Source of the DNA: an uncultured Gammaproteobacteria bacterium
GTDB taxonomy: Bacteria; Pseudomonadota; Gammaproteobacteria; GCA-2729495
DNA length: 39,618 nt
Direction: 5' to 3'
Assembly: GCA_947258805.1 (NCBI GenBank)
Contig: CAMYJV010000017.1
Coordinates: 1-39,618 of the forward strand
Position 1 is the first letter of the stretch. Each line of letters opens with the position of its first letter. Below are positions 1,270 to 11,883 of the stretch, in pieces. The translations under genes and the position numbers were made by a program. The notes beneath the pieces were generated by a model. The model saw only the letters and a program-made list of their open reading frames with translations, did no database searches and was not told where the DNA came from.

Positions 1270-2043
1270 TCAGTCGCGTATACCGACGCCCCGGTGGATC
1301 AGCACCAGGCTCAGCATAAACAACCCGCCCAGAAAGGCCAGGATGATCAGGTAGGCGACCCAGATATTGATGTCCGAAACGCCCAGCACGCCGAATCGAA
1401 ACGCATTGACCATGTACAGGATCGGATTCAGCAGTGACAACTGTTGGGCGAATTCCGGCAGCAGGGACACGGAGTAGAACACGCCGCCGAGATAGGTCAG
1501 CGGCGCCAGCACAAAGGACGGAATAATAGACACGTCGTCGAACTTGCGCGCAAAGATCGCGTTGATGAGGCCACCGAGAGAGAACACGGCGGAGGTCAGG
1601 ATGATCACGCTGACCGCGATGAACAGGTTGTGAACGGGCAGCCGGGTAAAAAACAGCGCGATCCCGGTGACCACCAGACCAACCAGCAGGCCACGGACCA
1701 TGCCACCCAGCATATGACCGATCACGATGACCCAGTTGGGCATTGGTGCGACCAGCATCTCCTCGAGGTGGCGGTTGTACTTGGCGCTGAAGAAAGACGA
1801 CACCACATTGCCGTAAGAATTGGTAATGACCGACATCAGGATCAGCCCCGGCGCGATGTATTCCATGTAATCGAACCCCGCCATCTGCCCGATGCGCCGG
1901 CCGATCAGGGTGCCGAAGATCAGGAAATACAGCGTCATCGTGATGGCCGGCGGCACCAGGGTCTGGACCCAGATCCGCATGACGCGCTGGAATTCCTTGT
2001 TCCCAAGTGTGCCGAGGCTGATGAGCTGACCCTGCAGGTTCAT
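1270..2043 (-). CDS. yadH: ABC-2 type transporter permease, YadH-like
   Basis: This 257-residue protein has about six hydrophobic segments and the ABC-2 membrane pattern (VPPAITMTLYFLIFGTLIG, EEMLVAPMPNWVIVIGHMLGG, PLTYLGGVFYSVSLLP, NPILYMVNAFRFGVLG). It would form the membrane half of an exporter with the ATPase encoded immediately upstream, whose stop overlaps its ATG by 4 bases, indicating translational coupling. YadGH-type exporters are widespread in proteobacteria, but their substrate is not established, so none is assigned here. Length and motifs look intact. Confidence 0.9.
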   Translation of the reverse strand: MNLQGQLISLGTLGNKEFQRVMRIWVQTLVPPAITMTLYFLIFGTLIGRRIGQMAGFDYMEYIAPGLILMSVITNSYGNVVSSFFSAKYNRHLEEMLVAPMPNWVIVIGHMLGGMVRGLLVGLVVTGIALFFTRLPVHNLFIAVSVIILTSAVFSLGGLINAIFARKFDDVSIIPSFVLAPLTYLGGVFYSVSLLPEFAQQLSLLNPILYMVNAFRFGVLGVSDINIWVAYLIILAFLGGLFMLSLVLIHRGVGIRD

Positions 2044-2993
2044 GAGGCCCTCGCAGCGATGGACTCCACGGCCTGCTCTTGACTACCGCGTTCGGTAAGG
2101 CGAAAGAACACCTCTTCCAGCCGATTCGATTTATTGCGCATGCTGATCACGCTGATGCCCGCACCGCTGAGCATGCGGAACAGGCCGTTCAGGTCCTGGT
2201 TGCGGGTGATTTCCACCTGCAGCTCGTTCTCGTTCAGCAGCGTGACGTCAAACTCGTCGAACAGCGGCAAGGCCACCACGGGCTCACGCGTGGTCAGGAC
2301 GAAAATTTCCCGATGCAGTTTCATCAGGATCGACGTCATGCGATCGTTCGCCACGATCTTGCCGTGGTCGATGATGCCGACATGCCGACAGAGCTTCTCC
2401 GCTTCTTCCAGGTAGTGCGTGGTCAGAATGATGGTGGTGCCCTGTTCGTTGATCTCGCGCAGAAACTCCCACATGGAGCGCCGTATTTCGACATCCACCC
2501 CGGCCGTCGGTTCGTCGAGTATCAGCAGCCGGGGCTTGTGGACCAGGGCCCGGGCAATCATCAGCCGGCGCTTCATGCCGCCGGACAGGTTTCGCGCGAT
2601 GTCGTCGCGCCGGTCCCAGAGTTGCATCTGTTCCAGGACTTCCCGGGCACGCCGGCGCGCCTCGCGACGCGGAACGCCGTAGAAGCCCGCCTGGTTCGCC
2701 ACGATATTGTCCAGCTGGTCGAACTGGTTCAGGTTGATTTCCTGGGGTACGACGCCGAGGCAACTCTTGGCGGCGGCGAGGTCGGTGTCCAGGCTGTGGC
2801 CGAAAACCTCGACCTGGCCGGAAGTCTTGTTGACCAGGGACGTGACGATGCCGATGGCCGTGGTCTTGCCGGCCCCGTTGGGCCCGAGCAGAGCGAAGAA
2901 ATCGCCCTCCTCCACGACCAGATCAATGCCGTCCAGGGCCCGCACGCCGTTAGCGTAGGTCTTGACCAGGTTTCGAATCGCGAGTGCGTGCAT
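2040..2993 (-). CDS. yadG: ABC transporter ATP-binding protein, YadG-like
   Basis: The 317-residue ATPase has a Walker A at residues 37-44 (GPNGAGKT), a Q-loop (GVVPQE), the signature NLSGGMKRR, a Walker B with LLILDEPTAGVD, and the switch histidine in TTHYLEEAE. After the ATPase core, a C-terminal extension of ~90 residues (from about VVALPLFDEF) is typical of ABC-2 exporters with a separate permease. It pairs with the overlapping yadH. The start is the ATG at 2991-2993; I see no strong ribosome binding site. The gene lies 63 bases downstream of the FlhD-like gene on the same strand and may share its transcript. Confidence 0.92.
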   Translation of the reverse strand: MHALAIRNLVKTYANGVRALDGIDLVVEEGDFFALLGPNGAGKTTAIGIVTSLVNKTSGQVEVFGHSLDTDLAAAKSCLGVVPQEINLNQFDQLDNIVANQAGFYGVPRREARRRAREVLEQMQLWDRRDDIARNLSGGMKRRLMIARALVHKPRLLILDEPTAGVDVEIRRSMWEFLREINEQGTTIILTTHYLEEAEKLCRHVGIIDHGKIVANDRMTSILMKLHREIFVLTTREPVVALPLFDEFDVTLLNENELQVEITRNQDLNGLFRMLSGAGISVISMRNKSNRLEEVFFRLTERGSQEQAVESIAARAS

Positions 2994-3056: not shown

Positions 3057-3659
3057 TCAGGCGCGATGCCGTTGCGGACGTGGCGGCCGCAAACCGGCCA
3101 GACCCAGCGGAATCAGGTCGAGCCCGACGGGGCGCCAGCCATCGGCCTTCATGCGCGCGGCCCGCATCAGCAGTGGCAGCAGGTTGGGGCTGAAGGCCCG
3201 GCACACGCGCAGTTGCGAGGCTGCCAATGGGACACAGTTCTGGATCGTGTCGAAGCCGAGCTGTGCGAGCCGCTGCACCCGGGCCTGATCGGCACCCACG
3301 CACAGGGATGCGGCAACTGGCTGGTGGCGGGCAATTTGCCAAAGGTACGTCAGCAGGCCCGCCGCATAGGAATTGGCGGCGAGGCGCCAGGCAGGATCCA
3401 GGTTTGCCGGCGGTGGCTGTTCGGCAACCTGCGTCGATAACGGCAGCGTCCGGAAACCGGCCAAAGGTACCGGCAGTGCAGCCAACCGCCGCAGCTCTGA
3501 AGCATTCAGCGCAGCCAGCGCCTGAACGCTCCGGGGGTGCAGGCCGAGCATTTCGAGCCCGGCGTCACCAGCCCGGGGGTCCGCCACCAGGCTCAGGAAG
3601 GCCACGTTCAGATCCCGAATTTCGACGAAAAAAACCTTATCCAGCGCTTCACACCGCAT
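3057..3659 (-). CDS. FlhD-like regulator with an apparent tandem duplication of the FlhD domain
   Basis: I chose the ATG at 3657-3659 because AGGAG lies 7 bases before it. An ATG five codons further upstream lacks such a site. The resulting 200-residue protein is almost twice as long as E. coli FlhD (~116-119 residues). Residues ~14-70 (IRDLNVAFLSLVA, then LGLHPRSVQALAALNASELR, then PLAGFR) follow the FlhD layout from memory: a helical IYDINLSYLLLAQ-type start, then LGI......TLAALT, then a CHFR-like end. Residues ~96-154 repeat the pattern (AAGLLTYLWQIA, VGADQARVQRLAQLG, LAASQLRVCR). A Pro-rich linker (residues ~80-90) separates them. FlhD and FlhC together form the class 1 flagellar activator. 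The gene is divergent from the FlhC-like gene at 3781, which supports the pairing. The true targets are unknown; no flagellar genes are in the window. Confidence 0.6.
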   Translation of the reverse strand: MRCEALDKVFFVEIRDLNVAFLSLVADPRAGDAGLEMLGLHPRSVQALAALNASELRRLAALPVPLAGFRTLPLSTQVAEQPPPANLDPAWRLAANSYAAGLLTYLWQIARHQPVAASLCVGADQARVQRLAQLGFDTIQNCVPLAASQLRVCRAFSPNLLPLLMRAARMKADGWRPVGLDLIPLGLAGLRPPRPQRHRA

Positions 3660-3738
3660 TGGCCAGCTCCTCATATCTCAGGGCCGGATTACTATATATG
3701 GGAATTTTCGACCATAAAAGGTAAAAACAGCCTTGAAT

Positions 3739-3780: not shown

Positions 3781-4362
3781 ATGCGGGTAACAGATGACCG
3801 CTACTCAGGCGAGTTGGAGAGGTTTGACCTGGCCATGCGGATGATCCGGCACGAAGCCCGAACCGGCACGATCCGTGCCTGCACGGGCTTCACCGAAGAC
3901 CGCGTGCGCAAGCTCGTTGCCAGCTACTGCCGGGAGACGGGCCGGCCGCCGTTGCGGCGCCGGCGCGGCAAGTCGCCGCGCCAGGTGGCGCCTTTCGTCA
4001 GCAGCGCCGAGCGCCAGGCCGAGACCACCCGGCTCGCGACGCTATATATCTATTGCCGCGCAGCTGACCTGAACGCCGAAGGCCGCATCACGCGCGACGA
4101 GAACGACTCGCTGGTCGAGATTGCCCAGCGGGTGTGCCAGGCCTACGAACTCTATGAAATGCTTGAACCCAGCCCAACGCTGTCCTTCGAATGGGCCTGG
4201 AACCTCTATCATGCGCTGCTGGTAACGGGTGAACTGTACTTTGCGTGGTGTGCGGCTTGCGATGCGCCCTATGTTCAGGACCGCTACGCACTGGATTACG
4301 AACACTGCCCGTCATGTGAACTGCGTGAGCAGCAGGAGAGGCGTGCACATGAACTCCGATGA
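3781..4362 (+). CDS. FlhC-like transcriptional regulator
   Basis: Starting at ATG 3781, with AGGGAG about 10 bases upstream, the protein has 193 residues, essentially the length of E. coli FlhC (192). The N-terminal half shows the FlhC helix-turn-helix pattern (LAMRMIRHEAR, DRVRKLVASYCRETGRPP, then a KSPRQVAPFVSS segment resembling SPPKGMLPFS). The middle has AYELYEMLEPSPTLSFEWAW, parallel to AYRLYLE and LTRAWTLVRF in FlhC. The C-terminal zinc site is complete: Cys157, Cys160, Cys176 and Cys179, as CxxC-15-CxxC, close to the FlhC arrangement. FlhC binds DNA with FlhD to switch on flagellar and other genes. Here it is divergent from the FlhD-like gene rather than co-transcribed, and it is followed 9 bases later by the disrupted nudC. 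It is strongly diverged from enterobacterial FlhC outside these landmarks. Confidence 0.7.
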   Translation: MRVTDDRYSGELERFDLAMRMIRHEARTGTIRACTGFTEDRVRKLVASYCRETGRPPLRRRRGKSPRQVAPFVSSAERQAETTRLATLYIYCRAADLNAEGRITRDENDSLVEIAQRVCQAYELYEMLEPSPTLSFEWAWNLYHALLVTGELYFAWCAACDAPYVQDRYALDYEHCPSCELREQQERRAHELR

Positions 4363-4371
4363 CTGCCCCCG

Positions 4372-5269
4372 ATGACTAAAGTCGAGATCACCTTTGCCGG
4401 CGGGCGTCTGGACCGGGCGCCGGAGGTGCGCGCGGATCCCGCCGCGCTGCACGCGGCGCTGACCTCGCCGCAGGCCCGCTTCGTGCCGGTCTGGCAACAA
4501 CGCTGCCTGGTGCAGAACGACCGGGCGGGCCTGCTGAGCGCGGCCGAGCTGGGCGCGGCCGCGCCCGGAGTGGATGCCGCCATTCTGCTTGGCCGGCGCG
4601 CCGACGAGTGGCTGTTCGCCGCAGAGCTCGATGCGGCGCGGGCGCCGAAGCTTGGCCCGGGCCAGGTGTTTGCCGAGCTCCGCGAGGTCATGGGGCAGTT
4701 GCCGGCCGGGGACGCCGCCCTGGTGGCCTAGCGGCGTGTGCGGCGCAGAGAACCGGCCGCGAGAAGGCGGCTTTGTCATGGAGTGCACCGCGGCGGGTTG
4801 CGGACATCGCAGTTTTCCGCGTCTCGATCCGGCGGTGATCGTGCTGGTACACCATGGCGAAAGCTGCCTGATGGGGCGCCAGCCCACCTGGCCGGAAGGC
4901 CGTTTTTCGACAATCGCCGGCTTCATCGAGCCGGGCGAAGGCCTTGAAGATGCGGTGCGCCGCGAAGTGGCTGAAGAGACCAACATCCGGGTCGGTGCCT
5001 GCCATTATTTCGCGTCGCAGCCGTGGCCGTTTCCCGCGGCATTGATGATCGGCTTTCACGCCGTGGCTGAAAGCACCGATATTCGTCTGAACGACGGCGA
5101 GCTGGCCGACGCCCGCTGGCTGACACGCGAGCAGATTGCGGGCCGGGACGTCACCTTGCCGCCGCGCACCTCCGTCGCCTTCCGGCTCATCGAATCATGG
5201 TTCGACAAGGGCGGCGTCACGCTGCGTGAACTGGGGATAGAGGGCCCGCCTCTCAAGCTGCGCCGCTGA
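4372..5269 (+). pseudogene. nudC: NADH pyrophosphatase NudC, disrupted in the zinc ribbon
   Basis: Frame 1 (4372-4731) encodes the N-terminal NUDIX-like domain (AILLGRRADEWLFAAEL) and stops at TAG after ALVA. A shifted frame then resumes with GVCGAENRPREGGFVMECT, the remaining zinc-ribbon cysteines, the Nudix box (GFIEPGEGLEDAVRREVAEE) and the NudC signature SQPWPFP, ending at TGA 5267-5269. NudC hydrolyses NAD(H) and removes NAD caps from RNA. Intact relatives carry roughly 13 residues (a YARxLxxWHxxHxFC-like stretch) between ALVA and GVCGA. These and the first zinc cysteine are missing. The junction fits a deletion running from inside a Tyr TAC codon to inside the TGC codon, with length 2 modulo 3, probably ~40 bases. 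An ATG at 4778 could start a separate Nudix fragment. The 3' end overlaps the convergent esterase gene by 17 bases. Confidence 0.75.
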
Positions 5270-9774: not shown

Positions 9775-10858
9775 ATGAATCAATACGCGACACCGGCACA
9801 GGCCGCAGAGGCCCGGCACTTGCTGCAGGTCTACCCCCAGCTGGCCATTGAGCCGACGGGTTCCGACGGGGTGTACCTGCACTGCGGCGACCGCCGGGTG
9901 CTCGACCTGTACGGCGGCCATGCGGTCGCGGCCCTGGGCTACAAGCACCCGGAGCTGCTCGCGGCCATGGACAGCCAGGCGAAGACGCTGTTCTTCCAGA
10001 GCAACGCGGTAGCCCTGGACGTCAGGGCCCGGGCTGCCGACGCGCTGATCGACTTTGCACCCGACAACCTGGAACGGGTCTTTTTCGCCAACAGCGGCGC
10101 CGAAGCCAACGAGAACGCGCTGCGCCTGGCCTGCCGACTGACAGGCCGGACGCGGGTCGTCGCCATTGAACACGGTTTTCACGGCCGCACTGCCGGTGCC
10201 GGTGCCGTCACCTGGGGGGCGGCCGGCGGCTGGTACGGCTTCCCGAGGCTGCCCTTTGACGTGGACTATATTCCGCGCGACGTCGTCGGCGCGGTAGCGG
10301 ACAAAGTCACGGCCGACACTGCCGCCGTAATTGTCGAACTGGTGCAGGGCGTGGCCGGCGCCTACGACCTCGATCCCGCCTTCGTCACGGCAATCGCCGA
10401 CGCCTGCAGGGCCGCGGGCACCCTGTTGATCGTGGACGAAGTACAAACCGGTGTCGGCCGCTGCGGTGCGCCCTTTGCGAGCCAGCTCTACGGTATCCAG
10501 CCTGACTTGCTCACCGCAGCCAAGTCCCTCGGCGGCGGCTTTCCCTGCGCCGCGTTACTGACCACCGCCGACGTTGCTGCGGAAGTTCGGCACGGCGACC
10601 TCGGGACGACGTTTGGCGGCGGGCCGCTGGCCTGCGCGCTGATCGAAACCGTGCTGCGCGTGGTCCGGCGCGACGGCCTGGCGGCGCGGGTTGCGCTGCT
10701 CCCGGCGCGCGCGCGACGTGCAGGCCGAACTGCTGGCGGCGGACATCCTGGCCGGCTCCAGTGCCGATCCCAATATCGTTCGATTGCTGCCACCCCTGGT
10801 ACTGGAGCAGCAGCACATGGAACAACTCCTGAATACGCTGGCCGCGCTGCCAGCTTGA
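9775..10858 (+). pseudogene. argD: Acetylornithine aminotransferase ArgD, frameshifted near the C-terminus
   Basis: ArgD is the PLP-dependent aminotransferase that makes acylornithine. Landmarks include the N-terminal GSDGVYLHCGDRRVLDLYGG, FFANSGAEANENALRLA, the PLP aspartate segment DEVQTGVGR, and the Schiff-base Lys250 in AAKSLGGGFP. The frame is lost near 10700-10712. Removing one C from the CCC at 10701-10703 yields VALLRRARDVQAELL and continues to TGA 10856-10858, giving ~360 residues. Without that correction the frame reads straight into the transcarbamylase gene, giving an artificial 702-residue fusion. The argD stop and an ATG of the next gene overlap (TGATG). A homopolymer sequencing error is the simplest explanation. 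Confidence 0.85.
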
Positions 10859-10872
10859 TGAGAGAGACGATG

Positions 10873-11883
10873 ATGAAAGAATTTTACGACCTCGCAGATT
10901 TTTCCGTCGAGCAGATTGAAGCACTGATTTCGCTGGCCAGCCGACTGCAGCATAAGCCGGAGCCCGAGGCGCTGGCGGGCAAGGTGCTGTCGCTGCTGTT
11001 CCTGAGCCCTTCGCTGCGCACCCTCGCGTCCTTCCAGGCCGCCATGGTGCGCCTTGGCGGCGGCTCCTTCGTGATCTCTCCGGAGATGTCCATTCACGGT
11101 ATCGAAGCGCGGGCGGGCATCGTGATGGACGGTGTGGCCGCCGAACACATTCGCGAAGCGGTGCCGGTCATCGCATCCTACGGCGATGCAATGGGCATTC
11201 GCGCCTTCGCCGAACGGCGCAGTCTCGACGATGACCTGGCGGACCGCGAATACAACAATCTGCGCCGACTGGTGACGACGCCGCTGATCAACATGGAGTC
11301 GGCCATCGGGCATCCGTGCCAGAGCCTGGCCGACTGGAAAACGCTGGACGAAATCGGCGTGCCGAAGCAGGGCGGGCGCTTCGTGCTGAGCTGGGCCTAT
11401 CACCCGCGGCCACTGCCGCTGGCCGTGCCGGCGGCAACCCTGCAGATGGCGGCCATGCGCGGTATGGACGTGACGGTGTTGCGCCCGGAAGGTTTCGAAC
11501 TGCCGCCGTCGATCGTGGACCGCGCCGCGCAGGCTGCGGCCGCATCCGGTGGTTCCGTGCGTGAGACGGACGATCGCGGTGAAGCCCTGGCTGGCGCCCA
11601 CGTAATCTACGCGAAGTCCTGGTCGTCGACCCGGCACTACGGGGACAAGATCGCCGACGGCGACCTGCGCCGGGACTTCGACGACTGGTGCGTGGACGAT
11701 CCCTGGTTCGAATCGACGGCCGAAGACTGCCGCTTTATGCACTGCCTGCCCGTGCGCCGCGGCGTGGTGGTGTCCGATCGCGTGCTCGACGGCCCGCGCA
11801 GCGTCGTGATCCAGGAGGCCCAGAACCGCATGTACGCACAGATGGCCGTGCTGCATGCGATGCTCGGCAACGGAGGCCTGTAA
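10873..11883 (+). CDS. argF': N-acyl-L-ornithine carbamoyltransferase (ArgF', AOTC/SOTC family)
   Basis: The protein belongs to the acetyl/succinylornithine transcarbamylases rather than to classical ArgF. It has FLSPSLRTLASFQAAM (carbamoyl-phosphate loop), INMESAIGHPCQSLADW, the family-typical LSWAYHPRPLPLAVP, VIYAKSWSS and HCLPVRRGVV. Such enzymes transfer carbamoyl to acylornithine, so the pathway runs through acylcitrulline. At the position aligned by eye with Glu92 of the Xanthomonas enzyme (MDGxxEEH) it has Ala (MDGVAAEH). Published substitutions there shift preference toward N-succinylornithine. The phosphate loop has RTL where RTR is usual. I prefer ATG 10873, with AGAGAG 6 bases upstream, giving 336 residues; in-frame ATGs at 10858 (overlapping the argD stop) and 10870 are alternatives. 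Confidence 0.85.
   Translation: MKEFYDLADFSVEQIEALISLASRLQHKPEPEALAGKVLSLLFLSPSLRTLASFQAAMVRLGGGSFVISPEMSIHGIEARAGIVMDGVAAEHIREAVPVIASYGDAMGIRAFAERRSLDDDLADREYNNLRRLVTTPLINMESAIGHPCQSLADWKTLDEIGVPKQGGRFVLSWAYHPRPLPLAVPAATLQMAAMRGMDVTVLRPEGFELPPSIVDRAAQAAAASGGSVRETDDRGEALAGAHVIYAKSWSSTRHYGDKIADGDLRRDFDDWCVDDPWFESTAEDCRFMHCLPVRRGVVVSDRVLDGPRSVVIQEAQNRMYAQMAVLHAMLGNGGL

Follow-up and report, generated by a model that had tools for sequence, protein, structure and literature searches.

A tandem FlhD protein encoded divergently from an FlhC homologue in an order of Gammaproteobacteria

The locus

In this work, we analyzed a 39,618-nt contig from an uncultured Gammaproteobacteria bacterium (GenBank assembly GCA_947258805.1, contig CAMYJV010000017.1), referred to below as the window, and focused on a protein of 200 aa that carries two FlhD domains and is therefore called FlhDD here. 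FlhDC is the textbook master regulator, a ring for which four FlhD copies are required, placed in two distinct environments. The usual build of the FlhD family is a single FlhD domain per chain, and in Escherichia coli and Cupriavidus necator flhD precedes flhC within a single operon. At the locus described here, the two FlhD domains reside in one chain, the gene is divergently paired with that of an FlhC homologue, and the two are separated by a conserved palindrome with copies at further promoters in some genomes (Table 1). An earlier sequence-only reading of the window had proposed that the open reading frame (ORF) encodes a tandem FlhD-FlhD fusion. Its placement of the ORF was correct, and the repeated VQ(A/R)LAxL stretches to which it pointed exist as VQALAAL (residues ~45-51) and VQRLAQL (residues ~128-134). 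An in-frame ATG also occurs at position 3674, but translation more likely begins with the ATG at 3659, since most relatives conserve the residues that directly follow.

Table 1. Features of the FlhDD locus in the window.
Feature	Position	Strand	Basis
FlhDD, 200-aa two-FlhD-domain protein	3057..3659 (stop codon included)	minus	ORF, profile comparison, predicted structure
N-terminal FlhD domain, residues 8-70; nearest profile canonical flagellar FlhD	3450..3638	minus	hhalign, PDB profile search, helix pattern
Linker, residues 71-87, four prolines	3399..3449	minus	AlphaFold2 model
C-terminal FlhD domain, residues 88-171; nearest profile short single-domain FlhD	3147..3398	minus	hhalign, VIA-align
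FlhC homologue, 193 aa, divergent partner of FlhDD	3781..4362 (ATG 3781)	plus	Model, profiles, cysteines
Conserved 34-bp inverted repeat, putative operator: TACTATATATGGGAATTTTCGACCATAAAAGGTA	3690..3723		Intergenic comparison, pattern search
ABC-transporter ATPase, named by eye	2040..2993	minus	Downstream of FlhDD, frequent neighbour

Two FlhD domains in one chain

The tandem architecture was borne out at the level of the family by profile comparison and predicted structure. Using hhalign and a family alignment with 84 relatives, we found that the N half matches canonical FlhD with 96.4% probability and the C half matches short single-domain FlhDs with 95.4%, against at most 1.6% for reversed or shuffled controls. 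All 84 distinct relatives, with lengths of 180-239 aa, align across both halves, with a profile match that is partial in some. In the AlphaFold2 model of FlhDD the same helix pattern occurs twice, with residues 60 to 88 free of helix, and in a structural search with this model the first five VIA-align rows were all FlhD and matched the second half. FlhDD thus belongs with FlhD both by fold and by controlled profile homology, and departs from the family in having more than a single domain per chain. The short FlhDs that give the best profile match to its second half differ in being single-domain proteins; they are about 97 aa long, and most have a WWxRL motif (L119, L121-L124, L126, L128, L133). 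By eye, the short FlhD copies of one genome (G441) adjoin an FlhC-like reading frame.

Several results weigh against this assignment. The FlhDD model is of moderate confidence (predicted local distance difference test, pLDDT, 77.6), and its Foldseek E-values for FlhD are weak, at 0.8 and above. The sequence-only reading had held that its claim would fall if the halves failed to score against FlhD profiles, and the single window sequence comes close to this, because neither half reaches the PF05247 cut-off of 27 bits (N half, 12.5 bits, E 0.18; C half, no match). Searched whole, FlhDD had no FlhD match in Pfam, where a sub-threshold DUF2857 match was the only one, no match in NCBIfam, and no FlhD match in a single-sequence PDB search. 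Among 22 family members, the best PF05247 E-value was 1.6e-4. Since the gathering cut-off is missed, we class FlhDD as a two-domain FlhD homologue and keep it outside PF05247 as this family is currently defined. One could also argue that the first half alone is a true FlhD and that the second is an unrelated helical domain, pulled towards FlhD by AlphaFold2 and profile alignment. Such a view would accord with the missing Pfam match of the C half taken alone, with the weak likeness between N-half and C-half profiles (just 12-16% probability, albeit in register and almost full-length), and with a PDB profile search that reached FlhD through the N half only (top three matches all FlhD, inside residues 10-71, E 0.0054, 0.34 and 0.8). 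Nevertheless, it is already strongly disfavoured, and we regard it as highly improbable.

Both halves of the tandem protein are under purifying constraint, with dN (nonsynonymous divergence) of 0.18 and 0.21 and dS (synonymous divergence) of 1.44 and 0.89 in a codon comparison of the window with the related locus L001. A half-domain tree was built over 86 columns from 15 single FlhDs and 27 halves of each type, with AcaD (see below) left out. In it the N halves grouped together (support 97/95) and, separately, so did the C halves (100/94), a pattern consistent with a single, ancient origin of the tandem FlhD. Duplication of one FlhD and fusion of two FlhD lineages were both compatible with the tree (approximately unbiased, AU, test, p 0.38-0.49). 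Separate groups of halves are also what specialisation would predict.

The FlhC partner and its divergent gene

The identification of the divergently encoded protein as FlhC-like was likewise upheld. Its family profile matches six canonical FlhCs with 98.2% probability (hhalign), and its model (pLDDT 88.7) gave three Foldseek matches under E 0.001, namely 8j56_F, 8j56_C and 2avu_E (probability 1.00, E about 1e-6), which we took as FlhC because they are chains of 156-160 residues in FlhDC entries. Four cysteines, C157, C160, C176 and C179, do not vary across the 46 sequences aligned and form the C-x2-C ... C-x2-C pattern of the FlhC zinc site, so that the protein agrees with FlhC in both fold and cysteines. 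It has 1441 relatives at E<=0.001, and many among the best 120 carry a precomputed PF05280 assignment. Set against this, the window protein stays below the PF05280 cut-off of 27 bits (19.3 bits, E 0.001), and a PDB search with its sequence alone returned no FlhC match. None of the four nearest genomes reached the PF05280 cut-off.

Of 84 distinct FlhDD proteins fetched, 81 had an FlhC-like gene within the retrieved locus, and in all 81 it was divergent from that of FlhDD. Two of the remaining three lie near a contig end (L033, L089), and in the third an ORF judged transposase-like by eye stands directly upstream of FlhDD at the expected flhC position (L010:2120-3255). The pair resembles the FlhD4C2 system of E. 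coli and C. necator (PDB 2avu, 1g8e, 8j56) in the FlhD homology of both FlhDD halves, in the FlhC fold and cysteine pattern of the partner, and in the adjacency of the two genes. It differs in that FlhD is tandem instead of single-domain, in that the genes are divergent and not co-directional, and in that the pair also occurs in genomes without a match to FlhA.

Relation to AcaDC and other activators of mobile elements

The sequence-only reading knew of no described FlhD of this build, and in this it was wrong in substance. AcaD, a described FlhD-like activator of 202 aa, shares the architecture: the protein from IncC plasmid pAR060302 (L281:43424-44032) scores 31.6 bits against PF05247 (cut-off 27), with two stretches matched at a loose limit, that of pRA1 (L282:40678-41286) scores 27.4 bits, and the AcaD halves match short FlhD with 91.1% and 95.6% probability (hhalign). 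AcaD of IncC/IncA plasmids thus appears to have two FlhD domains, and, judging from these profiles, the tandem architecture is not unique to FlhDD. The available portions of the papers on AcaD describe it as weakly homologous to FlhD and mention no tandem (PMC3915882, PMC4207636), and among the papers listed by our literature searches no report of a tandem FlhD turned up. AcaD co-purifies with AcaC, and AcaDC is reported to be the master activator of IncC/IncA conjugative plasmids, switching on their transfer genes (PMC4207636). A tandem build in AcaD would bear on how this activator complex assembles.

The likeness between the two systems, each with a tandem FlhD of about 200 aa that works, or would work, with an FlhC homologue, suggests a rival view, in which FlhDD-FlhC is kin to plasmid AcaDC and became domesticated, and is not a flagellar FlhDC that was modified. 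AcaD aligns with the FlhDD profile over 152 positions with 94.9% probability, as such kinship would have it. On the other hand, acaD and acaC are plasmid-borne and co-directional, whereas the FlhDD gene is divergent from flhC; the FlhDD neighbourhood does not present as a conjugative element and is conserved in L001-L004, with L001 titled chromosome, and the context in the mapped loci is conserved and chromosomal-looking. A plasmid search with the protein returned one chance-level match. The partner of FlhDD is somewhat closer to canonical FlhC (98.2% against six sequences) than to AcaC (94.7% against two), with profile depths that differ, and the half-domain tree, which was built without AcaD, left the origins undecided. 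Descent from AcaDC is, in our opinion, unlikely. SetCD of SXT/R391 integrative and conjugative elements (ICEs) and BisDC of ICEclc are also non-flagellar activators that have been likened to FlhDC; for BisD, a ParB domain but no FlhD domain is reported (PMC4344509, PMC7423338). Unlike FlhDD, both are carried on mobile elements.

Distribution of FlhDD

Among 5.8 billion proteins we found 21 relatives of FlhDD, 165-208 aa long, which were used for alignment A1, and a broader alignment was termed A2. The named ones among the 21 are annotated as hypothetical protein, and three have a precomputed FlhD domain. Genomes were then searched with both alignments at E<=0.001, where some matches span part of the profile. 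In a sample of 196 genomes from one gammaproteobacterial order, A1 matched in 93 and A2 in 162. A sample of 369 genomes from the class yielded 15 A2 matches, five of which run across both halves, all in that order, and ten of which are shorter. FlhD above the Pfam cut-off was present in none of the 196 genomes of the order and in 9 of the 369 of the class.

The flagellar protein FlhA (FHIPEP) was detected in 93 of the 196 genomes, and FlhDD occurred in 89 of these 93 as well as in 73 of the 103 genomes without an FlhA match, absences that are soft because many assemblies of the order are in many contigs. FlhA was not found in the genomes of the four closest FlhDD loci (G001-G004), all of which keep the FlhDD-FlhC pair. 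Because the pair is kept in these four, the FlhDD-FlhC switch probably controls more than flagella. Two genomes contain two FlhDD-FlhC pairs each, G033 (L066, L067) and G114 (L057, L081), and the second pair (L050/L066 and L057, respectively) has no clear palindrome.

The palindrome and its copies

Across the intergenic regions between the FlhDD and FlhC genes, the palindrome has the consensus TACCATATATGGT-N8-ACCATATATGGTA. The search pattern matches the window at 3690-3723 alone, with 0 matches expected in shuffles. At least 15 of 20 box positions were matched by 42 of 78 intergenic regions, as compared to 4 of 390 shuffles, and in 39 of those 42 the spacing is exactly 10 bp. The E. coli FlhDC box is described as a pair of inverted repeats set 10-12 bp apart, AAYGSSNNAAATAGCG-N10-12-CGCTATTTNNSSCRTT (PMC9962212). 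With its 10-bp spacing the palindrome is similar in layout, although its half-site sequence is unlike that box.

When 18 genomes were scanned, sites were found solely in the FlhDD-FlhC intergenic region in 12, additionally at a total of 15 extra places in five, and not at all in one. Nine of the extra places precede three gene families. Four are located before a gene for a membrane GGDEF diguanylate cyclase (G019, G178, G184, G002), the enzyme that would make cyclic di-GMP (c-di-GMP), and three in the region that separates a sigma-54-activator gene from an HDOD-type gene, with fliA and mot genes adjoining where the families were checked (G019). The other two are placed ahead of a DUF6502-type gene or at its start (G019, G178; L190:4814-4842, L194:328-356), a possible third target judging by position; this gene follows a ligase-like gene. 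We then scanned further promoters, 50 cyclase and 28 sigma-54-activator upstreams out of longer match lists, with a matrix trained on intergenic sites picked for box likeness, so that these other promoters alone are independent tests. In the first batch of 30 cyclase upstreams, 12 had p<=0.05 and 7 reached at least 10 bits, as did 0.2% of dinucleotide shuffles. In the second batch, 2 of 20 reached at least 10 bits, and these came from G001, the nearest genome found, and G003.

A number of counts speak against a regulon built on this site. In 20 of the 78 intergenic regions the score is 10-13 of 20 and the palindrome is not recognisable, a backward control pattern found seven matches in the same set of 18 genomes, and no common context links 6 of the 15 extra places. 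Among the cyclase upstreams, 23 of the first 30 and 18 of the next 20 score below 10 bits, and the site is present in 3 of 28 sigma-54-activator upstreams, from three related-looking genomes (2 further of 30 loci were incomplete). On these sequence comparisons, the proposed regulon is lineage-bound or partly wrong, and the palindrome could serve another regulator of the divergent pair. In the latter case, the tandem FlhD would be correct and the site would belong to an unrelated regulator. The confinement of the site to the FlhDD-FlhC intergenic region in 12 of 18 genomes is what a dedicated external regulator would give, and the regions without a recognisable palindrome point the same way; however, the extra copies at a c-di-GMP enzyme and a flagellar activator are plausible targets of an FlhDC-type factor, and the spacing is like that of the E. 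coli box (PMC9962212). We consider an unrelated regulator a minority prospect.

A model for FlhDD-FlhC

In E. coli, the FlhD ring is described as having two peripheral FlhDs, with helices 1 and 4 exposed, and two internal ones with both helices buried; FlhC is bound by DNA and the ring is held by FlhD (PMC3510510). An FlhDC-type complex with pre-fused FlhD domains is most likely here. FlhDD would act together with the divergently encoded FlhC, and, by analogy with E. coli D4C2, two chains of each would assemble into the same ring, with each FlhDD chain contributing one internal and one peripheral FlhD domain, an arrangement that the separate evolution of the halves fits. As the sequence-only reading had supposed, FlhDD may then act as a pseudo-dimer that fixes the stoichiometry and allows its halves to specialise. 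FlhC would make its DNA contacts at the intergenic palindrome, and the complex would thereby regulate its own production. In some lineages its targets may also include the sigma-54 activator of a cluster of flagellar genes and the membrane diguanylate cyclase, which acts in c-di-GMP signalling. The two FlhD domains, the FlhC identity of the partner, the divergent arrangement and the conserved palindrome with its additional promoter copies come from the computations above, and we infer complex formation, its stoichiometry, palindrome binding and a role as either activator or repressor. Taken as a whole, it is fairly probable that FlhDD provides the FlhD part of a chromosomal factor of FlhDC type, which it forms with a divergently encoded FlhC, and that this factor assembles as a ring and exerts its control at the palindrome.

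A broader and more tentative proposal, to which we give somewhat less than even chances, is that one gammaproteobacterial order swapped canonical FlhDC for a widespread core of tandem FlhD and divergent FlhC, with halves specialised as internal and peripheral subunits and an ancestral role in controlling c-di-GMP and lifestyle instead of the building of flagella. The proposed ancestral role stems from the persistence of FlhDD where FlhA was not found and from the recurrence of the operator at the diguanylate-cyclase promoter. The presence of FlhDD in many genomes without an FlhA match, together with the operator at a c-di-GMP gene, likewise suggests a chromosomal role for FlhDC-type factors beyond flagella and mobile elements. 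Moreover, a natural fusion with diverged copies would make the role of each FlhD copy addressable by mutating or swapping one half, which homomeric FlhD precludes.

Neighbouring genes

By eye, two neighbours recur in many loci: the ABC ATPase, next to FlhDD and probably outside the regulator system, and, on the side of FlhC, a NUDIX gene. The NUDIX gene of the window (NudC-like by eye; 4372-5269, plus strand) is split between two frames (ORFs 4372-4731 and 4574-5269), and its counterpart in L001 is a single ORF of 312 aa; the split reflects either a broken gene or a sequencing error. Farther away, a 702-aa ORF (9775-11880, plus strand) starts, by eye, like a 389-aa aminotransferase-like ORF of L002, which there adjoins a separate 338-aa carbamoyltransferase-like ORF, and the window ORF is possibly a fusion of two arginine-pathway enzymes.
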